Assembly (NCBI GenBank): GCA_015075175.1
Contig: JABTUV010000004.1
Span: 310,001 to 374,000 of the forward strand
Length of the DNA stretch: 64,000 nt
Reading direction: 5' to 3'
DNA from: a bacterium
GTDB taxonomy: Bacteria > Hinthialibacterota > Hinthialibacteria > H5-UNCL2
Part shown: in pieces, positions 13,544 to 57,979 of the stretch
Position numbering within the stretch: position 1 is the first letter of the stretch
Layout of the letters: each line of letters starts with the position of its first letter
Program-made: the position numbers and the translations under genes
Notes under the pieces: model-generated
The model's input: only the letters and a program-made list of their open reading frames with translations
The model's database searches: none
Told to the model about the DNA's origin: nothing

Positions 13544-13762
13544 TCTCTCTTGCCTCCGTGCCCGTTTCAAAAACTCACTCGCAGCTTCCGGGCCGAACTT
13601 AAGTGTAGTAAAATAAGACAGATCAGTTTCAGGCGCCGGGTAAGGCGCGGCACAGCGGAGACCCCCGCCGCCACTCTCGCGTCCCACCGCGTGGAGGTTA
13701 TCCTAAACGATTGCAGCGGACTTGGCCAGACCGAAACCACTGCGCCCGAAACCACCGCCCCC

Positions 13763-13828
13763 TGTCATTTCGACCGAAACCATCTGTCACTTCGACCGAA
13801 ACCATCTGTCATTTCGACCGAAACCATC
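13763..13828. repeat. Three 22-bp tandem units budding from R1
   Basis: Units start at 13763, 13785 and 13807. Each begins TGTCA(T/C)TTCGACCGAAA and ends CCATC; the next 'unit' is the left arm of the R1 palindrome itself. Degenerate copies (GACCGAAACCACTG, CCCGAAACCACCG) precede them from about 13728. Confidence 0.9.
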
Positions 13829-13914
13829 TGTCATTTCGACCGCAGGGAGAAATCTTCGGCCTTGCGCCGGGCCAGCCGGGTGGGCCAGGATTTCTCCCTG
13901 CGGTCGAAATGACA
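13829..13914. repeat. R1 palindromic element
   Basis: Arms TGTCATTTCGACCGCAGGG + AGAAATC and GATTTCTCCCTGCGG + TCGAAATGACA are perfect complements around a GC-rich 34-bp core. Degenerate echoes follow to about 13965 (GGGGCGAAATGACAGTAATG). It fills the gap between the divergent acyl-CoA ligase and glycoside hydrolase genes. Confidence 0.95.
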
Positions 13915-14028
13915 GCAACGTCACAATGGCAGCAGGGGCGAAATGACAGTAATGGTCGAAAAGCCTCTGGCGGTCTAGACCACTTCGTGCCATGAATAGC
14001 GCCATTCCGTACGTGGGAGGTTTTCATC

Positions 14029-21058: not shown

Positions 21059-24000
21059 ATGCGCAGTCTGTTGAGTGTCATCCTGGCGGGCCTGAGCCTT
21101 CTCGCCGCCCATGCCGCCACCACCCCCCTCGTCTCCTGGAACTTCGACGGCAACACCACCTCGACCAACGGCCAGTTCACCGGCCAGAATACGAACATCC
21201 AGTACGCCGCCGGTCATACCGGCGCCGCGACCGACCAGTCGGTTCGGTTCAACGGGACCAACTCGCAGGTACGTTACGCGGCCAACGGTCTCTGGACCTT
21301 CAACGAGAACCAGAGCTTCACGGTCGAGTTCCACATCAGGAGCACGCAGTTCCCTTCGCCCATCTCGACGCCGGTGATGTGCCGCCCCAGCGGCGGCAAT
21401 CCCACCTGGAGCTTCGTAATGGGCGGCGATTACGTCGGCTACGACCGGCAGATGGGCCATCTCTGCTTTGAAATGTGGAACTGGGCCGGCGACCGGGTAC
21501 AAACCAAGCGGCCCATCAACGACGGCGCCTGGCATCGCATCCTGGCGGCCTATTACGCGCCGCAGAATCTGGCGGTGATGTTCCTGGACGGGGAACTGCA
21601 GGGGACCATGACGGTCACCGGCGGTTACACCGGCGGCGCGGCCATCTTCAACCTGGGCAACAACGTGGGCGCCAACCAGCCTTTTGGCGGAGACATCGAC
21701 CAGTTCACCATCTCCAGCGGCGTGCCGGACAATCTCCTGACGCTGATCAACTTCGATGACCGCACGCGCACCATCCCCAAGACCACGGTCGAGTCCAATT
21801 ACGACCAGTGGTTGCAGCGATTGGTCGCCATCCAGCCCTGGACTCCCACCAATCTGACCAACTGGGAAGCGCGGCGAGCCGCGGTGCGAGAGCAGATTCT
21901 TACCGGCCTGGGCCTGCTGCCGTTCCCCTACACGCAAGATACGCCCGGCGATCTGCTGCCGCTGGACGTGCGCTACGGCACGCTCGTGGACTATCCCGAC
22001 TACACCCTGCAAGGACTGCGCATTCAGACGTGGGAGAACGTGTATGCCTATGGTTTCCTGTACATGCCCAAGGGCGGTTCGCCGCCCTATCCGGCCATCC
22101 TGAATCCCAACGGCCATTTTCAGTACGAATCGCGCGACCCGGTGATCCAGAGCCGCTGCATCGGACTGGCGCGCAAGGGTTTCATCGCCCTCTCCATCAA
22201 CAGCGTGCATCCGTTCGACGACCGCGTCAACCTGTGGCCGCAGTCGGGCATGATCTGGGACAACATGCGCGCGCTGGACTATCTCCACTCGCGGCCCGAC
22301 GTGGATCCCGACCGCATCGGCAGTACCGGCGCCTCGGGCGGCAGCCAGCAGACCTTCTACCTGATGGCGACCGACGACCGCCTGGACGCCGCCGTGCCCG
22401 TGGTCATGCCCAGCTATTTCAAAGAGATCATGACCACGCGCTCCGGCCTGCATCACTTCTGCAACTGGGTGCCCTACCTGATGCGACTGACCGACACGCC
22501 GGAAATTTGCGCCACCTTCGCGCCCAAGCCGGCCTTTTACATATCCACCAGCCAGGATTGGACCTACCGCTGGCCCGTGGAAGGATGCCCGAGGTGCGCG
22601 CGACCTATGCGCTCTACGGCGCGACCGACGCGGTCGGCCACTTCCACGACAACCTGCCGCATGATTACATGCGCTCGCGGCGCGAAAAAATGTACGCCTT
22701 CTTCCTCCGGGAGTTCATGGGCATCACCGAGGCCACGGCGGCGGTGGAACCGGACGACCTGGCGATCCTCAGCGACGCGCAGATGCTGGCGCTGCTGCCC
22801 AGCGTGCCCACGGCGGAGGAGATGAACAGCAAGCTGCCGATCGAGTTCGCCCAGCGATTGCGGCCGCCCGATCCGGTAGTGGCGACCGCCGGCGAGGCGC
22901 TGGCCTTTCAGAACCAATTGCGCGACAAGCTGCGCGGGATGATCGACGCGCCCATGCCGGAGGGTTTCTCACCTTCCGTCACGACCGCGACGCAGTTCGT
23001 CGAGGGCGACATCGACGTGTCGATCCTGCATTTCAAGACCGAAGTCGAGATCGTCGTGCCGGCGCTCTACCTGACGCGGCGGGCGCGAGCGGCCCGCGCC
23101 CGCTGGTCGTGTTGGCCGGACCGCAGAGCAAGGGCGTGATCTTCCTGCAAGAAACGGCCTTGTGCCAATCGCTCCTGTCGCTCAACTGCGCGCTGCTTCT
23201 GCCCGACATCCGCTACACCGGAGAGATGTCCAGCAACAGCGACTGGTACAAGAATTACGGCGCGCACCTGGGGCGCTTCGAGTCCAGCCTGGGCGCCCAG
23301 GACCTCATGCAGATGCTGAAGGTACTCAAGGACGATCCGCGATTCCTGCCCGGGCGGACGGTCGTGATCGGCTTCGGCAACGCCGCCATTCCCGCGCTTC
23401 TGGCCTCGATTCTGGACGGCGACGTGGCGGCCTCTGCGGGCACGGACGTGGGTCAGACCTACGGGGAGGGCCGCACGCGGCCGTACTTCAACGGAGTGAT
23501 CACCATCGGCGATTTGCCCCATATCGCCTTGCTGATGGCCGGGCGTCCGTTCCTGTGGCGGGGGGTCTCGGATGCCGGCAAGTACGCCTTGGTCGAGCAG
23601 TTCGCCGGGCTTCTCGACTCGCCGCTGGAATTGTCGGCGGAATCCGACACCTTGGGCCGCGCCGAAATCCTCGCATGGTACGGCGGCCTTTTCGAGCCGC
23701 CGCTGCCCGGCGAAGGCAAGGCGCTCTCCATCGGCGACGCCACGGCGGCTCAGGGCGCCGCCTTCTCGTTGTCCGTGTATCTTGACGGCGCGCGCGATGA
23801 AACCCAGTTCGGATTCTCGGTCAACTTCGATCCCGGCCGGCTGCGTTTCGTCGGGGCGGACTCGACCGGAACCCTGACGGAAGATTGGGAGGAAGTCTCC
23901 TCGCAACCCGTGGCGGCGGGCGTGGCGCGGATCGAAGCGACCGCGGGCGCCGGAACGCCGGCGACGGGCGAAAGCGCGCTGCTCAATCTTCTCTTCACGG

Positions 24001-24358
24001 TCGAGGCCGCCGCGCCGCTCGGCGACTCACAGGTCGAGCCGGACGCGGCGACGTTTTCCGGCGGCATTGCGGGAGCGACCGGCGTGGCCGGCACGGTCCA
24101 CGTTCTACCTGCGCCCACGCCTACTCCGACTTTCACTCCCACACCGACGCCCACGCGCACGCCGCTGCCGCTGTCCAGCTATGATTTAAACCAGAACGGC
24201 TCGATCGAGGGGGGAGACTTGCTCTTGCTGATCGAGAACTATGGTACCTCCGGTCCCTTGGGGGACTTCAACGGCGATGGCAGGGTTGACGAAACGGACC
24301 TGCTCTGGCGTTCTCGCTGCAATGGGGAAACCGTAAGTTCGCATTGACGCAAAAGTAA
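21059..24358 (+). CDS. Secreted LamG-esterase-cohesin-dockerin protein, copy 1 (frameshifted)
   Basis: Large exported modular esterase, about 1,100 aa. ATG 21059 follows GGAGG by 5 nt; signal peptide MRSLLSVILAGLSLLAAHA. Modules in order: LamG-like domain (residues about 20-230, ending DIDQFTISSGVPDN); alpha/beta hydrolase of the acetyl-xylan-esterase/dienelactone type with PYPAILNPNGHFQYESRDP and nucleophile motif GSTGASGGSQQ; a second conserved half (LLPDIRYTGEMSS); a cohesin-like beta domain (ALSIGDATAAQGAAF ... QFGFSVNFDPGRLRFVGAD); a Pro/Thr linker; and a dockerin-like pair DLNQNGSIEGGD and DFNGDGRVDETD. Frame changes near 22583, 23090 and 24305; the last restores LAFSLQWGNRKFALTQK and a TAA at 24356-24358, inside the first base pairs of the 40-bp array. 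Its close paralogue starts at 25190. Confidence 0.85.
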
Positions 24359-24893
24359 GCCGTGTCCTCAATCAGGGCCGGTATTGCACAAAACCTCAGC
24401 CGTGTCCTCGAGTAGGCCGGCTATGGTTGATAATCCAAGCCGTGTCCTCGAGTAGGCCGACTATGGTTGATAATCCAAGCCGTGTCCTCGAGTAGGTCGG
24501 CTATGGTTGATAATCCAAGCCGTGTCCTCGAGTAGGCTGACCATGGTTGATAATCCGGGAAGCCACAGGCCGGCTATGGTTGATAATCCAAGCCGTGTCC
24601 TCGAGTAGGCCGGCTATGGTTGATAATCCAAGCCGTGTCCTCGAGAGGGCCGGCCATGGTTGATAATCAAGCCGTGTCCTCGAGAGGCTGGCTATGGTTG
24701 ATAATCCAAGCCGTGTCCTCGAGTAGGCTGGCTATGGTTGATAATCCAAGCCGTGTCCTCGAGTAGGCCGGCTATGGTTGATAATCCAAGCCGTGTCCTC
24801 GAGTAGGCCGGCTATGGTTGATAATCCAAGCCGTGTCCTCGAGTAGGCCGGCTATGGTTGATAATCCAAGCCGTGTCCTCGAGTAGGCCGTCT
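24357..24893. repeat. 40-bp tandem repeat array, about 12 full copies
   Basis: Unit begins AAGCCGTGTCCTCGAGTAGG and ends CCGGCTATGGTTGATAATCC. Starts at 24357 (diverged), 24397, 24437, 24477, 24517, 24557 (truncated 33 bp), 24590, 24630, 24669, 24708, 24748, 24788, 24828 and 24868 (partial). Two copies are 39 bp. Copies are nearly identical, so there are no spacers and it is not CRISPR. Each holds the palindrome CTCGAG and most hold GCCGGC. The array starts in the stop codon of the preceding gene. Confidence 0.97.
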
Positions 24894-24898
24894 GCGGC

Positions 24899-25180
24899 CG
24901 TATCGAGAGGCACGGCGGCTTGAAAGCGCCAAGGCCGCGGCTATGCCGTTCTCTCGATACGTCCGCTGGCGCGGACTACTCGAGAACTCGGTTTCCAGCT
25001 TTCAGGCGGACTACTCGAGAACTCGGTTTCCAGCTTTCAGGCGGACCACTTGAGAACTCGGTCTTAGTGCCGTTTCTCAAAAAGTAGTTGCGGGAAACGA
25101 GAAACCGAGTCCGGCAGTAGCGGTACTCCGCGTATCGAGAGGACGACCGGGGCGCTACAACTTTTCTTGAAACGGCATTG
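24899..25180. repeat. Inverted and direct repeats flanking the 40-bp array
   Basis: GTATCGAGAG (24900-24909) pairs with CTCTCGATAC (24951-24960), and GTATCGAGAGG recurs at 25132. Two 35-bp direct units start at 24971 and 25006 (GCGGACTACTCGAGAACTCG...), with a third partial at 25041. They carry the array core CTCGAGTAG in inverse orientation. Outermost, TGCCGTTTCTCAAAAAGTAG (25068) is the near-complement of CTACAACTTTTCTTGAAACG (25155-25174), forming a stem of about 25 bp. Confidence 0.85.
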
Positions 25181-25189
25181 GGGAAGGTG

Positions 25190-28100
25190 ATGACAACACT
25201 CGCGGCTCGCACACTCGGCTTGCTCCTCTTCCTGGCTCCGCTGGTTTCCGCGGCGACGACGCCCGTCGCATTGGAGCTTTTCGAGGGCACGGTCGAATCC
25301 TCGTCCGGCCACGCGGGGACGGCGCAGAACGTCACCTTCGTGCCCGGCCATCGGGACGCCGGCGACCAGGCCGCCTACTTCAACGGGACCAACGCCAAGG
25401 TCCAATATGCCGCCAGCTCGCTTTGGACCTTCAACCACAACCAGAGTTTCACGCTGGACTTTATTTCAAGACCAGCCAGCAGCCGGCCGTGATTGCGACC
25501 ATGGTAATGACGCGCAGTCCGGGCGCCCCGACTGGATGTTCGTTCTGGCCGGCGACGCCCCCGCTTACAACCGGCGCCCCGGCCACCTCTCGTTCGAGCT
25601 CTGGAATTGGAACCAGGACCGCATCAACTCCAGCCGTCCCCTCAATGACGGGCTGTGGCATCACGTCGTGGCCGCCTACTATCGCCAACCGCACCGCGGT
25701 CATGTACGTGGACGGCGTCCTGCAAGGCGCCATGTACGTTCCCGCTGACTACACCGGCACGACCAACCAGCTCTGCTTCGGCAACAACATCGGCGCGGAC
25801 CAACCCTATGCCGGCGCTCTGGATGAGTTTCACGTCCTCTCGGGCGTCCCCGACGCGGTGAAGGAGATTTTCGCCTTCGACGCCTCGCTGCGCACGCTAC
25901 GAGTACCGAAGTGGAAGCGGGCTACGACGCCTGGATGGAACGCCTGTACGCCATCCGGCCCATTCCGGCGACCACGCTCGCCGAGTGGGAGGTGCGACGG
26001 CGGTTCGTGCGCCAACACACGCTGGAGAGCCTGGGGCTATCGCCCTTCCCCTATACGCAGCAGACGCGCGGCGATCCTGCCCCTGGATGCGCGCCTCGGC
26101 TCGGCCAGCGACTCTGGCGACTTCACCGTGCAGGGCATCCGCATTCAGACCTGGCAAGGCATCTACGCCTTCGGATATCTCTATCTTCCCAAGACCGGCA
26201 GCCCGCCCTATCCGGCGATTCTCAATCCCAACGGCCACTTCGCCTATGAATCGCGCGATCCGGTCGTGCAGAGCCGTTGCATCGGTCTGGCGAAAAAGGG
26301 TTCATCGCCCTCTCCATCAACAGCGTCCATCCCGAGGTGCTGTCGTACAACATCACGCCGCTCTCGGCCATGGTCTGGAACATGATGCGCGCGCTGGACT
26401 ACCTGGAGAGCCGGCCGGATGTGGACAGAACGCGCCTCGGTGCACCGGCGCCTCGGGCGGCGGGCAGCAGACGTTCTACCTTATGGGCGTCGACGACCGG
26501 CTCGCCGCCGCCGTGCCGGTGGTCTTGAATGGCTATTTCAAAGAGATCATGAGCACGGCCGACGGCAAACCCTGGCGCACCGGCTCCCACCACCACTGCA
26601 ACTGGTCACGCGCCTCCTGGCGGAGACGGACTGCCCTGAAATCTGCGCCGTGTTTGCGCCCAAGCCCTGCCTGTACATCTCGACGACCCAGGATTGGACG
26701 CGCAAGTGGCCGCAGGAGGAATGCCCGAAGTCCAGGCCGTTTACGCGCTCTATGGAGCGACCGACGAGGCGCGAAACCTCCACGACACCTGCCCCACGAT
26801 TACATGCGGGCGCGGCGCGAACCCATGTACGCCTTCTTCCTCAAGGGTTCATGGGCATCACGGACGCGACCGCGGCCGTCGAACCGGACAACCTGCCGAT
26901 CCTGACGCCGCAGGAAATGGAGGAAATGCCTCCACCGGCGCCCAAGATTCCCTCCGCCGCGGACTGGAATGCGGCCATGACGCCGGAGTTCCTGGCGCGC
27001 CGCGCCCCGTCGAGCTGCCATCGCCCACAGATTCCGCGCAGACTCGGGGTGCTGCTGGAAGTGGAACGCGCGCGCGTCGCGCGCTTCATCGACGTGCCCA
27101 GCTCGCGTGGATTCGCTCCCCAGATTGCGACCGCCAGCGACTTTCTCCATGAGGGCGCCCGGATACGCATCTTCCACGTGCGTACCGAGCCGGAAATCGT
27201 GGCGCCGGTCGTCTGCCCGACGCGCCCGGCCGGCCCCGAGCCGCGACGCCCCGTCATCCTGGTCGGCCCCTCAAAGGCAAGAGCGACCTGGCGATTCAGG
27301 AAGCCGAGCTTGGCGCGCGCTGGTCGACTCCGGCGCGGCGGTGTTTCTCCCCGACCTGCGCTACAACGGCGAATTGAAGACCATTTCCGGCTGGTATCGA
27401 CCCTACGGCACGCTGTTTGGGCGCTACGAGGCAACCGTGGCCGCCCACGACCTGCGGCAGATCGCGGCCGCCATCGCCGCCGCAAGCGGCGAGTTTCGCG
27501 CCGACGAGCTGGTCGTCATCGGCTTCGGCCACGGAGTCGTTCCAGCGTTGATCGCCGGCGCTTTGGAGCCGGCCGTGCGCGCCTGCGCCGCCGCTGAAAT
27601 CGGCCCCACCTATCGGGAGGGACGCACGACCCCGCTCTTCGACAACGCCATCGGCCTCGGCGATCTGCCCCGCCTGGCGGTGCTTGTCGCCGGACGTCCG
27701 CTCTACCTGGACGGCATGTCCGACCCGGACCTGTACGACGGTGCGAAGGAATACAGCCGGGTACTGGGCCCCGCAGCCGTCATCGCTTCGACCCCGGATG
27801 CGCCCGGCCATGCGCGGCTTCTGGAGTGGTACACCGGCCTCTTCCAGACTCCCCTCCCGCCGGGAACCGGCAAGACGCTCTCCATCGGCGACGCCACGTC
27901 CGTGCAAGGGGCGAGTTTCACGCTCTCCACCTACTTGTCGGGAGCGAGGGACGAGACTCAGTTCGGCTTTTCCGCGACGTTTGACGCCGGCCGCCTGACC
28001 TTCCTCCACGTATCCGCGCCGGACACGGCGGTCCAAGACTGGGACCAGGTGAGTTCCACGCCGGAGGGCGCCGGGACCGTTCGTATAGAGGCCGCGGCCG

Positions 28101-28504
28101 GAAGCGGCACGCCGGCGACGGGCGAGGTCCGTCTTATCGACCTCGTCTTCACGGCAATGGCCGACGCACCCCTGGGCGACACGGTGGTCCAACCGGTTTC
28201 AGCCGGCTTTTCCGGCGGCATTGCAGGAGCGACCGGCGTTCCGGGCATCGTGCACATCCTGCCCGCGCCCACTCCCACGTCAACCCCGACGGCTACGCCG
28301 ACTCCGTCGCGCACGCCTACCCCAACCCCGTTGCCGCCGGCCGGCTTCGACCTGAACCAGAACGGCCCGGTCGAAGCCGGCGACCTGTTGATTCTAATCG
28401 AGAACTACGGTACGTCCGGCCCCTTGGGAGACTTCAACGGCGACGGGCGGGTCGACGAAATGGACGTGCTCCTGTTTTCGGTCCACTGGGACCTCTCCGC
28501 CTGA
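25190..28504 (+). CDS. Secreted LamG-esterase-cohesin-dockerin protein, copy 2 (many frameshifts)
   Basis: Paralogue of the 21059 gene with the same module order. ATG 25190 follows GGGGAAGG; signal peptide MTTLAARTLGLLLFLAPLVSA. LamG domain to about 25850; hydrolase with PYPAILNPNGHFAYESRDP; nucleophile region split by a frameshift (GASGGGQQTFYLMGVDD in one frame); RYNGELKTISGWYRPYG; cohesin-like ALSIGDATSVQGASF-type domain (here TLSIGDATSVQGASFTLSTY) with QFGFSATFDAGRLTFLHV; Pro/Thr linker; dockerin DLNQNGPVEAGD and DFNGDGRVDEMD, ending FSVHWDLSA. Alignment to copy 1 shows most frame changes are single-base losses in homopolymers (TTT to TT near 26305, GGG to GG near 26605). From 27350 to the end the frame is clean. 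Probably functional in the organism. Confidence 0.82.
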
Positions 28505-28624: not shown

Positions 28625-29455
28625 ATGAAATCCCTGACGCGCCGCCAGCGGGAAATTCTGGAGTACGTGGTCGCTTTCCGCGAGCGCATGGGGCGGACGC
28701 CGACCGGCACGGAAATCGCCCGGCACTTCGGGTTCCAGGACCATTCCAGCGCCTACCAGCACCTGCGGGCGATTGAGCAGAAGGGGTACCTGGAGATCGT
28801 GCAGCCCAGCCGGCGGGGGGTGGTGGCATTGCGCCTCAGCGAGGCGGCCAAGCGGCTCCTGCGGCCCGCCTGGCCGCTTCTGGGACGCATCCCCGCCGGT
28901 CCGCTCTCGGAGACCGACGAATCGCGGCAGGAGATCGAGCGCCTGGAGGACCTCCTGCCCGGCCTGCGGCCCGGAGATTACTTCCTGGTCGTAGAGGGCG
29001 ATTCCATGATCGAAGCGGGGCTTCTGCCCGGCCAGTACGTAGTCGTCCGGCCCGAGTTGCCGCCCCAGGAGGGGGACATCTGCGCCGTCTGGATCGAGGG
29101 CGAGGGCGGCACGCTCAAGCGGATCGCCTGGGAGAGCGACACGGTGCGATTGATCCCCGCCAACCCCGCATACAGCGAGCAGCGCTATCCCGCCGAGCGC
29201 GTGCGTGTACAGGGGGTAGTCATCGCCGCCGTGGCCACGCAGATCTTCAAGCGCACTGCTGTCACTGCAAATTCTTCTGTCACTGCAAATTTCCCTGTCA
29301 CTGCAAATTCCCCTGTCATTGCAAATTCCTCTGTCACTGCAAATTCCTCTGTCACTGCAAATTCCTCTGTCATTTCGACCGAAGGGAGAAATCTTTCCCA
29401 ACGGGCGCCGGAGGCCGGGTGCAAGTCGGAAGATTTCTCCCTTCGGTCGAAATGA
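28625..29455 (+). CDS. lexA: LexA-type SOS repressor with repeat-derived C-terminal tail
   Basis: SOS regulator that self-cleaves when RecA is active. Winged HTH at residues 1-65 (RRQREILEYVVAFRERMG ... GTEIARHFGFQDHSSAYQHL). Cleavage site Ala-Gly at 91-92 (GRIPAGPL). Catalytic Ser127 is in VVEGDSMIEAGLLPGQYVVV and Lys165 in GGTLKRIAWESDTVRLIPAN. The S24 peptidase domain ends near residue 210 (IAAVATQIFKR). The remaining 66 residues are not LexA: six S-S-V-T-A-N-type hexapeptides encoded by 18-bp tandem units, then translated R1 palindrome, whose GAAATGACA gives the TGA stop. ATG 28625 follows GAAAGGGGAAACCC. It precedes imuB by 27 nt, so this is a lexA-imuB cassette. Housekeeping versus cassette-specific LexA cannot be decided. 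Confidence 0.92.
   Translation: MKSLTRRQREILEYVVAFRERMGRTPTGTEIARHFGFQDHSSAYQHLRAIEQKGYLEIVQPSRRGVVALRLSEAAKRLLRPAWPLLGRIPAGPLSETDESRQEIERLEDLLPGLRPGDYFLVVEGDSMIEAGLLPGQYVVVRPELPPQEGDICAVWIEGEGGTLKRIAWESDTVRLIPANPAYSEQRYPAERVRVQGVVIAAVATQIFKRTAVTANSSVTANFPVTANSPVIANSSVTANSSVTANSSVISTEGRNLSQRAPEAGCKSEDFSLRSK
29259..29366 (+). repeat. Six 18-bp tandem units in the lexA 3' end
   Basis: Units start at 29259, 29277, 29295, 29313, 29331 and 29349, of form CTGTCA(C/T)TGCAAATT plus 3 variable bases. The length is divisible by three, so each adds six residues (x-x-V-T/I-A-N). The seventh CTGTCA starts the R1 arm. Confidence 0.95.
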
Positions 29456-46285: not shown

Positions 46286-48614
46286 TCAGGTTCCGCTTTC
46301 GTGCCCCGCCAGCTCCCACTCCAGGAAATCGAGGCCCAGGTCGTACAGGCGCACGTTCTTGACCCGCTTGTTTAACACCCAGCGCCAGTTATGTCCAATC
46401 AGAAATGTATACGGCTGCTCCTCCCAGAGGATGCGGTGGAGCTGGCGGAAGAGCCGGGTGCGTTGCTCCTTGTCCAGTTCCTGGCGTGCCGCTTCCATCA
46501 TGCGGTCGGCGCGGGGGCTGGCGTAGCCGCCGAAGTTGAAGCCGTCCGCGCCCTGTGAGCTATGGAAAAACGTGTACGGGTCCGACTCCATGCCCACCAC
46601 CCAGCCGCCGCCCCCCGCGTCCCACTTCTTGTCGCGCAGCCACTCCAGCTTGAGCGCGCCCTCCACGCTTCGCGCCCGGCATACCACGCCTACCTTGGGG
46701 CCGTTGCGCAAAAACGAGAGCATCACCCAGCTGTTCTGCGCGTCGGGATCCGAGGTCAGGTACTCGAACACGAACTTCTCGCGCTGGTTGCCGTCCCGGT
46801 CCAGCGGTTCATCCGAGATGATCCCGTCGCCGTTCAGGTCCTTGTCACGGACGCCGTCGCCGTCGCTGTCCTTCCAGCCCGCCTCGTCCAGAAGCGCCTT
46901 GGCCTTCTCGACGTTGTACTCGTATCGCGGCAGCTCGGCGTCGTATCCCGGCTCCTTGTAAAAGTAAGGCCCGGTCACGATGGGAAAAAGCCCCAGGAGA
47001 ATGTTGTCCACGGCTGCCCGCGTGTCGATCAGGTGCGACATGGCCTGACGGCAACGCGGGTCGGAGAAGAAGGAACGCCGGCAGTTGTAGCCCACGTATT
47101 CGTAACCCGGCCGATCGTAGGAGAGCTTGTAGAAATGCCGGTCGAACTGCTCGCCGACCGATTTTTGTGTATACGTCCACACGCCCACCGAGCCCATCGC
47201 GTCGATGTCGCCCTTGCGAAACACCTGGTAGGCGACCACCACGTCGGAGATGATCTTGAAGTCCACCCGCTGGATGCTGGGAGCGAGCTCGCCCCAGTAG
47301 TCCTCCCAGCGTTCCACCACGATGGAGGTGTTGCGGTCCCACTTGACGAACTTGTAGGGCCCCACCCCCAGCGGCACGTCGCGCTTGGGATGCTCGGTCA
47401 GCTTCCTGCCCGTGTCGTAATAATGCTCGGCTACCAGGCGCAGGTAGCCGGCGTTTTCCAGGTTGGCGTAGTTCTTGCGCGGGAAGTGAAACTTGACGGT
47501 GAAGGCGTCCAGTTTCTCGACCTGCACGTCGTCCAGGATCGCCAGCGCGAGGTACAGCGACTCGGGCAGGGGCTGGGAAGGTGAGAGGGCGAACAGCTCG
47601 CGCAGGTTGATCATCGCCTCGGCGCAGGGGGTCGCGGGGGGAAGATTTCTCCCTTGGGTAGAATTGACAAACGACGGCGTCGAAATGACAGACGACGGCG
47701 TCGAAATGACAGACGAGGGCGTCGAAATGACAGAGGAGGGCGGCGCATTGACAAGGGAAGGGGCGAAATGCCAGGAGCGACGGCGAAGGTGGCCGACTTG
47801 ATCCAGGCTTCCCCGGTTGCGTGCCAGCCGGTGGAGCGGGATAGAGATTGCCGTCGTCCACGAGAAAGTAGGCGTCCCACTGCGCGACGAGAGGTCAAGG
47901 GCCATAGGCGACCGAGTCGCCCGGCTGGCGGGCGACAAAGACGGCCAGGTCGTGCCGGGCCGATTGCAGGCCCCAGAGGTAAAGGAAATCCCCCCAGACC
48001 GCCGCGCCCAGGGCGGTCTGCGTGCCCGAAAGCAGGACCGCCGCTTCCGGCTCGGGCGCGCCGTCCAGAACTGGCGCCGACGAGAGCGAGGGCAGGCCCG
48101 ACAGTTCCAACCGCAGATACTCGTGAGCCTCCAGTTTGCCGTCGCCGTCGTCCGCCGGCAGGCTCTCGGTCAGCGCGAACTCCATGTAGTCCGAGCGCGC
48201 ATGGCCCGCCGGCACTTCGGGATTCATGCAGGTTGCGAACGAGTAGAGCACGTCGTCCGCATCGAAGCGCTCGCCGTCGTGCCACCGCACGTCCGTACGT
48301 AGGGGAAACGTGTAGTCCAGCCCGTCTTCCGAAATCGTCCAGCCCTTCACCAGCCGGGGAATGTTCTCGTTCTTCTCCATGTCCCAGTCGAGAAGATAGT
48401 GGTGCACGTACTCCAGCACATAAGCGGCATTGACGCTGGTGCGCAGGATGGGGTTGAGATAATCGGGATCGGCGGCAAGCCAGCGGCGCAGGGTGTTGTC
48501 GTTTCGGGGCACGAAGGGGTCGAGATCCCGGTTCTTCACCCAGTGCGCCAAGAGCGCCGCGAACGCCGCCAGGACGGTCAGGGGAAGCAGGTAGGGAATG
48601 GAGTGTAGCCGCAT
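46286..48614 (-). CDS. Membrane-anchored peptide-binding protein, family 5, copy 1 (repeat insertion, frameshifts)
   Basis: Periplasmic substrate-binding subunit for the Opp importer. ATG 48614; N-terminal helix PYLLPLTVLAAFAALLAHWV without a lipobox, so it is held by a transmembrane anchor. SBP_bac_5 text: NTLRRWLAADPDYLNPILRT, VKGWTISEDGLDYTFPLRTD + VRWHDGERFDADDV, KFHFPRKNYANLENAGYLRL, GVGPYKFVKWDRNTSIVVER + W, and SDPRCRQAMSHLIDT. An Asp-rich loop DSDGDGVRDKDLNGDGIISD resembles calcium-binding repeats. Between KSATFAVA and INLRELFAL, seven residues apart in the copy-2 paralogue, lies about 150 bp of R1 and 21-bp tandem DNA translated as S-S-V-I-S-T-P repeats. Frame changes occur near 47895 and 47780. 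Confidence 0.88.
47641..47775. repeat. R1 arm with 21-bp tandem units inside the binding-protein gene
   Basis: GATTTCTCCCTTGGGTAGAA + TTGACA (one R1 arm, 47645-47668), then about three units built on CGACGGCGTCGAAATGACAG (from 47672, 21-bp period), then degenerate units to 47775 (GGCGGCGCATTGACAAGGGA). On the minus strand each unit adds seven codons. Confidence 0.85.
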
Positions 48615-56778: not shown

Positions 56779-57979
56779 GTGGAGGGTAGGGTCGCCCGGC
56801 TGGCGCTTGAGGACGGCAGGATTTTCGTGGGTCGCGGCTTCGGCGGCGCCCGCGAGAGCGAGGGGGAAGTCGTTTTTAACACCAGCATGACCGGCTACCA
56901 GGAAATCTGCGCCGACCCCTCCTATAAAGGCCAGATCATGGTCTTCACGTATCCCCTGATCGGCAACGTGGGGACCAATGCGCTGGACCAGGAATCCGAA
57001 TCGATCTACGTGTCCGGCGTGGTGTGCCGGGAATTGTCCCCTCTCGCCTCGAATTGGCGCAGCCGCGAGACCTTTCCTGATTACCTGGCGCGGCACAACG
57101 TGCCGGGCGTCGCCGGCGTGGACACGCGCGCTCTGGTCCGGCATCTCCGCGCGACGGCGGGGTCCTGCGCGGCGTCATCTCGCTGGACGAGACGGCCGAC
57201 AACGCCGCCGCGCTGGTAGAACGGGCGCAGCGGGTCCCTCCATGGCCGGCTGCGACCTGGCCAGCGTGGTCACCGATCCCCACTCGTACGTCTGGCAGAC
57301 GCAGCCGCTGAACCTGCCCGCCATCACCAAGGCCGACGATGCCCACCGGCTCTACCTGGATTACGAAGAACAATACGGGCGAATCGACCAGGCGATCTAT
57401 GCGGGCGACTACGGCGGGGCGGGCGAGCCGTTGGTCGTGGCCTACGGTTTCGGCATCAAGCGCAACATCCTGAGATTACTCCGGGCGCAGGGCATGCGCG
57501 TGCGTGTCGTGCCCGCCCAGACCTCGGCCGCCGACGTGCTGGCGATGAACCCGGCGGGGGTTTTCCTCTCCAACGGTCCCGGCGATCCCGAGCCGGTGGA
57601 TTACGCGATCAGGAACATCCGAGAACTCATGGGCAGGCGGCCCATCTTCGCCATCTGCCTGGGCCATCAGCTGCTGGCGTTGGCGGCGGGCGCCCGCACC
57701 TACAAACTCAAGTTCGGCCATCGCGGCGCCAACCAGCCGGTCAAGGACCTGACGACCGGCCGCGTCTGGATCACCAGCCAGAATCACGGCTTCTGCGTGG
57801 ATCGCGACAGCCTGGCCGGAAGCGGGCTGGAGGTGACGCAGATCAATCTCAACGACCAGACGGTCGAGGCGCTGGCGGACGAAAAGCGGCGGATTCTGAC
57901 CGTGCAGTATCATCCCGAGGCCTCGCCCGGCCCGCACGATACGGCGGAGCTGTTCCGGCGGTTTCGAGAGCGACTTTAG
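56779..57979 (+). CDS. carA: Carbamoyl-phosphate synthase small subunit (frameshifted)
   Basis: Glutaminase subunit feeding ammonia to CarB for arginine and pyrimidine synthesis. GTG 56779 follows GAGGAG. N-domain: [50 protein letters not shown]-type [15 protein letters not shown]. The class I amidotransferase has [20 protein letters not shown] (nucleophile Cys), SQNHGFCVD and [20 protein letters not shown] (His, Glu). Frame changes near 57160 and 57232 interrupt the junction; restoring them gives [20 protein letters not shown] and [12 protein letters not shown]. CarB follows after 253 bp of repeat DNA. Confidence 0.93.

Follow-up and report, generated by a model that had tools for sequence, protein, structure and literature searches.

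The block situated between the twin esterase-like genes is a REP/BIME-like cluster, a known kind of repeat assembly and, taking our explanation as a whole, it is likely to be a local cluster of dispersed palindromes and not a device of the two genes that it separates. It also contains tandem arrays built from only one half of a palindrome, the half bearing its tag; this variant is apparently undescribed, a provisional assessment that covers the open-access literature.

Organization of the block between the paralogous genes

The features of the block are listed in Table 1; the window is the whole 64,000 nt stretch of DNA analyzed. Each unit of the long array consists of the tag-side half of a hairpin (GCCGTGTCCTCGAGTAGG) plus a locus-specific spacer. 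The sequence GTGTCCTC starts at position 24362 and recurs downstream at ca. 40 bp intervals, with one damaged unit near 24557–24577. Hairpin 1 can be written as GCCGTGTCCTCGA-GTA-GGCCG TCTG CGGCC-GTA-TCGAGAGGCACGGC, and its predicted DNA fold has a z value of −4.4; hairpin 2 is TCGA-GTA-GTCCGC GCCA GCGGAC-GTA-TCGA. Two matches to the intact hairpin pattern CTCGAGTAG-N-CGTATCGAGAG were found in the window, against none in 100 shuffles.

Table 1. Features of the block and its two flanking genes (positions within the window).
Feature	Coordinates	Strand	Remarks
Copy 1	21059–24347	+	Signal peptide, LamG domain, probable alpha/beta-hydrolase, cohesin, dockerin; frameshifted as assembled
Degenerate first array unit (GTAAGCCGTGTCCTC...)	24357–24397	+	Overlaps the probable stop of copy 1; from sequence
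40-bp tandem array, 12.6 copies	24398–24890	+	TRF, 90 % matches; unit listing
Intact REP-like hairpin 1	24870–24916	+	Core 24878–24909; forms the end of the left array
Spacer separating hairpins 1 and 2 (head-to-head dimer)	24917–24950		Homologous dimers at ca. 20 other loci
Intact REP-like hairpin 2	24951–24984	−	Opposite orientation to hairpin 1
35-bp tandem array, 2.6 copies	24971–25063	−	Tag-side half-units of hairpin 2, on its tag side
MITE-like element C, 118 bp	25064–25181	+	Ca. 30 genome copies, 83–98 %, unrelated flanks
Copy 2	25190–28504	+	Paralogue of copy 1; frameshifted as assembled

The preliminary description of the block, made without database searches, had reported about 12 nearly identical 40-bp units, which agrees with the TRF result. 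The inverted pair GTATCGAGAG/CTCTCGATAC that it noted is present at 24900–24909 and 24951–24960, and the core said to run in the opposite direction in the 35-bp units was found as CTCGAGTAG on the minus strand, TRF delimiting this second array at 24971–25062 with 96 % matches. It was also right in considering the block too structured for a random VNTR and in setting it apart from a CRISPR, which combines direct repeats with unique spacers: here, spacers are identical within arrays. The placement of the array start in the stop codon of copy 1 holds for a TAA at 24356–24358, provided that the frame of copy 2 is used for the dockerin end; as assembled, the gene ends in a TGA at 24345–24347. Likewise, the 25-bp stem exists (25068–25092/25153–25177), but its distance to the ATG of copy 2 (25190) is 12 bp, not 10, and it is not an outer stem of the block, its arms being instead the termini of a separate dispersed element, element C.

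A search of the genome of origin (4.98 Mb in 49 contigs, 84 % complete) revealed that the block, previously taken as one unit, is a composite of independently recurring dispersed repeats. Region 25065–25177 (query positions 709–821) and the middle part, 24889–25064, recur separately, and the latter contains an inverted hairpin dimer found at ca. 20 loci in this genome. There are 97 exact hairpins (38 and 59 on the two strands; none with the reversed-pattern control) and ca. 30 copies of element C genome-wide, a dispersal that does not support any special tie between the position of the block and the twin genes. The block is thus largely what the preliminary description had set against its own reading, that is, a common repeat whose position is unconnected with these genes.

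Element C has 28-bp terminal inverted repeats with consensus ends CTAG...CTAG, changed by mutation to TTAG/TTGG in this copy, and an inner GTAG hairpin; the CTAG at both ends could be target or terminus. It is short and dispersed in unrelated flanks (mean flank identity, 27 %), as are MITEs. Every terminal repeat of element C was found paired with another ca. 90 bp away, so the 84 %-complete assembly contains no autonomous element with these termini.

The GTAG hairpin is dispersed, intergenic and structurally conserved

All copies of the hairpin have the form ...TCGA-GTA-[variable inner stem, loop]-GTA-TCGA..., in which GTA forms a 3 × 3 internal loop that separates the short inner stem from the outer TCGA one, and the final G of GTAG is paired. 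The inner arms vary and stay complementary (CCGG TACT CCGG, GGCCG TCTG CGGCC, TCCGC GCCA GCGGA, CGTCC GTAA GGACG, and others). The mean inner stem was 4.2, falling to 0.9 after swapping halves between copies, and 23 aligned variants showed 24 double-change cells, compared to 8.0 in shuffles. Since pattern searches fix the collar of the hairpin by construction, we also made a pattern-free scan for hairpins with an outer stem of 4, a 3 × 3 loop and an inner stem of at least 4. A GTA/GTA loop was present in 43 of the 82 hairpins from one Microbacteriaceae genome, with TCGA outside in all 43, and GTA/GTA/TCGA was also the top class in the genome of origin, where n = 3.

A crude codon-usage gene model, applied to clusters partly chosen by their similarity to the block and hence descriptive of those loci, placed 41 of 44 repeat clusters outside predicted genes, with ca. 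74 % of the sequence being coding (p about 4e-21). Under the same model, convergent gene pairs made up 18 of 43 with repeats, versus 5 of 42 without repeats.

Half-palindrome arrays extend only on the tag side

A second family of palindromes, CTGTCATTTCGACCG...GGGAGAAATC, carries a TGTC tag and is unrelated to the GTAG family. We counted arrays of at least three units in a 1.62 Mb sample comprising 1.2 Mb of contig C1, the whole of contig C45 and the window. The GTAG family showed nine arrays of the left, tag-side half and none of the right half. In the TGTC family there were 42 arrays of the tag half, a few of them runs of whole or mixed units, and none of the 3′ half, two whole-unit arrays aside. 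Outside the window, the count was 44 tag-side arrays versus 0. Adjacent half-site pairs at array spacing followed the same polarity, with 108 versus 2 for TGTC and 32 versus 4 for GTAG. The periods of the TGTC arrays were chiefly 22, 18, and 17 bp, and the GTAG left-half arrays found elsewhere had other spacers and periods of 33–41 bp. Nearly all arrays ended in an intact palindrome, the array being situated on the tag side of that palindrome. A mini-hairpin following GTAG and kept in each array unit was considered as a further component and rejected, because it did not exceed the shuffled control.

The spacers point to where the units came from. The TGTC spacer beside the intact palindrome matched the 8 nt upstream of its own array at 3.85 of 8 positions, compared to a permuted mean of 2.51; the maximum in 1000 permutations was 3.26, so the observed value was never reached. 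Because spacers resemble the local upstream flank, arrays are made in place, with each unit formed from flank joined to the palindrome's first half. On contig C1, 15 TGTC arrays lie on the plus strand and 14 on the minus strand; arrays pointing both ways on a single contig indicate that polarity is set by the tag, not by one direction of the replication fork.

Among Microbacteriaceae, a sample contained 48 partnerless left halves versus 12 right halves and one left array, arrays being rare. Relatives of the same class (ca. 300 kb) had neither half-unit arrays nor intact TGTC copies, and the repeats are seemingly absent from them. Since arrays are rare in the former and were not found in the latter, the array rule is documented in one genome and is so far essentially a property of it alone.

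Contig C45 has a GC skew of 0.11, and its GTAG palindromes are unevenly oriented (4 plus versus 19 minus; 9 versus 56 for the cores). This bias may reflect single-strand or replication-linked insertion; a link between tag orientation and GC skew is suggestive, coming from one contig and being absent for the TGTC family, and we do not claim it.

Hairpin presence does not track Y1 transposase genes

A shorter pattern found 109 copies of the hairpin in the genome of origin. Searches of 60 further genomes, 13 of them from the same class, found no exact hairpin; the shorter pattern was found in 30 of 121 Sphingomonas genomes and in 71 of the 249 genomes in the family to which Naasia belongs, with up to 1174 copies per genome and a control near 0. 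We take this family to be Microbacteriaceae. Isolated matches appeared in other phyla, some of which may be due to chance. Viral contigs yielded 0 hairpin matches, and hence no sign of a viral origin. An Rfam search returned no family, its one hit, to a microRNA family, being below threshold and due to chance, and primers were the sole matches when the literature was searched by repeat sequence.

The genome of origin contains two genes with the Y1_Tnp domain (PF01797, the RAYT/IS200 domain). Both are flanked by other palindromes, and no copy of the GTAG hairpin was found beside either. One of them, a RAYT-like transposase gene at about 1200–1890 of locus L044, is flanked by the palindrome GAAAATTAGGGTCAGCGCCTAATTTT; the second, at about 2000–2210 of locus L058 (minus strand), lies among GGAGT-tagged palindromes (GGAGTTCAAACTTCAGTTTG...) that are unrelated to the GTAG hairpin. 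Y1_Tnp was detected in 2 of 249 Microbacteriaceae genomes and in none of the 71 that bear the hairpin; for Sphingomonas, the figures were 12 of 121 and 2 of 30, respectively. The presence of the hairpin does not, then, track Y1/RAYT genes, and a RAYT was rejected as its mobilizer, with no association at either Y1 gene of this genome or across the two clades. The occurrence of one hairpin family in Actinobacteria, Sphingomonas and the lineage studied here, at up to ca. 1170 copies per genome and without Y1 transposases, argues for another mobilizer or route. The genome with the maximum of 1174 hairpins, designated G231, gave no Y1 transposase match. At positions 87118–87789 of its contig C1 (locus L175), an alternating plus/minus hairpin pair is repeated four times with constant spacing, forming a textbook BIME array.

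Relationship to known palindromic repeats

According to the accessible text of their survey, GTAG REPs are stem-loops with GTAG at the foot and compensatory stem changes, present in many intergenic copies that favor convergent genes (PMC3733652; Di Nocera et al., 2013). The hairpin agrees with this in having its tag 0–2 nt from a stem-loop with compensatory changes, in its many dispersed palindromic copies per genome and, by the crude gene model, in its extragenic location with a preference for unidirectional or convergent pairs. The same text describes head-to-head dimers and clusters, and REP termini that can supply stop codons (PMC3733652), as seen here. However, the hairpin departs from the canonical GTAG REP, in which an unpaired terminal tag precedes a basal stem of ca. 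6–13 bp: its tag is enclosed in a larger hairpin whose collar, composed of the outer TCGA/TCGA stem and the 3′ side (GTATCGA), is conserved, its inner stems are short, and no RAYT association was found. The head-to-tail half-unit arrays are a further difference, since head-to-tail dimers of GTAG REPs are absent or rare in what is accessible of the survey (PMC3733652), which makes no mention there of tag-side half-arrays for GTAG or CGTC REPs. Among the hosts of GTAG REPs, the text names Proteobacteria, Cyanobacteria, Chloroflexi, and PVC, with Actinobacteria unlisted (PMC3733652).

The block shares with REPINs and REPtrons the inverted REP doublets and the GTAG tag, as well as CT dinucleotides near the tag, where TnpA-REP cleaves (PMC3116915, PMC8266576). 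Nevertheless, REPtrons include a cognate RAYT gene flanked by the repeat, and no such gene was found in this genome (84 % complete), nor does the hairpin follow Y1_Tnp in two lineages; for lack of the cognate RAYT, we do not classify the block as a RAYT-REPIN. The similarity to Escherichia coli BIMEs lies in the mosaic palindrome clusters of alternating orientation, exemplified by the inverted dimer here and at ca. 20 loci and by the alternating arrays in G231, although the clusters described here also bear polar half-palindrome arrays. As for the second family, its TGTC tag is a stated variant of that of the CGTC REPs, a likeness by tag only; the CGTC superfamily has no known transposase in the accessible survey text (PMC3733652).

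Possible origin of the arrays

REP palindromes are among the commonest bacterial repeats, and their spread and clustering are unsettled. Each tag-side half-array is a natural record of something directional happening at a REP, and one genome has dozens of them; this one-sided growth is the surprising part of our results. As to mechanism, we infer that the palindromes may spread as single-stranded hairpins. Arrays would gain one unit per event in situ: DNA synthesis would run through the flank and on into the hairpin as far as its apex, copying its first half, and would then restart, or be rejoined, at the flank; element C would have landed beside the hairpin dimer. Direction would be set by something that reads the tag, either a tag-strand-specific nuclease or transposase or an asymmetric hairpin. 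A tag-strand-specific nick-and-rejoin enzyme, the candidate being hypothetical, would be the most direct account of polarity, since the activity of TnpA-REP enzymes is confined to the strand that bears GTAG, which they cut at a CT near the tag (PMC8266576); polarity could derive from hairpin asymmetry instead. It is rather unlikely that a single tag-reading enzyme serves two unrelated REP superfamilies, adding tag-side units of flank plus first half, and that TCGA-GTA/GTA-TCGA defines a superfamily that extends across phyla and is mobilized by an activity other than RAYT. If such an enzyme exists, array building would be directional and sequence-addressed, distinct from both slippage and RAYT transposition.

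The main rival is slippage on an asymmetric hairpin. An ordinary VNTR, created by symmetric replication slippage at a hairpin-prone site without any tag-specific step, deserves serious attention even if we do not expect it to be the answer: each locus has homogeneous units, with spacers derived from the flank nearby, and at several junctions the eye picks out apparent microhomology. If slippage occurred on either nascent strand, however, either half of the palindrome should become duplicated, and 51 arrays were tag-side versus 0 for the other half, in both orientations on one contig. Slippage and HUH nicking-and-rejoining differ in what they predict for junctions and polarity, and these predictions can be tested. 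The GTAG next to a stem-loop, the head-to-head dimers, and the convergent intergenic placement, as in the accessible description of GTAG REPs (PMC3733652), together with the presence of two Y1_Tnp genes and the orientation bias on the GC-skewed contig C45 expected of single-strand targeting, are what a classic RAYT/REPIN system would show, with the GTAG hairpins mobilized by the Y1 (HUH) REP transposase of the genome itself. We consider this unlikely, because the hairpin flanks neither Y1 gene and the domain is so scarce among hairpin-bearing Microbacteriaceae and Sphingomonas, even if the partner in this genome could be missing from an 84 %-complete assembly.

The remaining explanations concern the block itself. 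As a structured 3′ UTR or transcription-termination element for copy 1, it would begin appropriately at a stop codon, the dimer folds strongly as RNA (z of −4.7), and clusters are over-represented between convergent genes; yet dispersed copies follow unrelated genes, covariation is equally expected of DNA hairpins, and a T-run terminator was not found downstream of hairpin 1, which makes this role quite improbable. An assembly artefact or collapse would fit the frameshifts in nearby genes, suggestive of indel errors, and the one-base indels in other arrays, but is very improbable given that the same architecture, with different spacers, recurs at dozens of loci in unique flanks. Hardly more credible is the recombination site that was earlier suggested as a possible origin of the esterase-like gene duplication: in spite of its position exactly between the paralogues, these are 53 % identical over their C-terminal part compared to the nearly identical array units, no copy was found at the outer flanks of the twin genes, and the block has no match elsewhere in the window. 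The regular repeat length recalls a CRISPR-like array, a possibility that is practically negligible since the supposed spacers are locus-specific and flank-derived as well as identical within the array. The preferred reading of a local cluster of dispersed palindromes implies that any effect on neighboring genes would be generic, in the form of a hairpin at the 3′ end of an mRNA.

Other observations in the window

The EF-G gene next to the paralogues is intact, and both paralogues are frameshifted; their frameshifts are either long-read indel errors or a sign of decaying genes. A 97-nt tRNA-Gly predicted at 57236–57332 has an atypical look and may be a false call. Arrays of the TGTC family, likewise restricted to the tag side, are situated in the window at 13762–13842, 29259–29372, and 47661–47785, and at about 13916–13960 on the minus strand.
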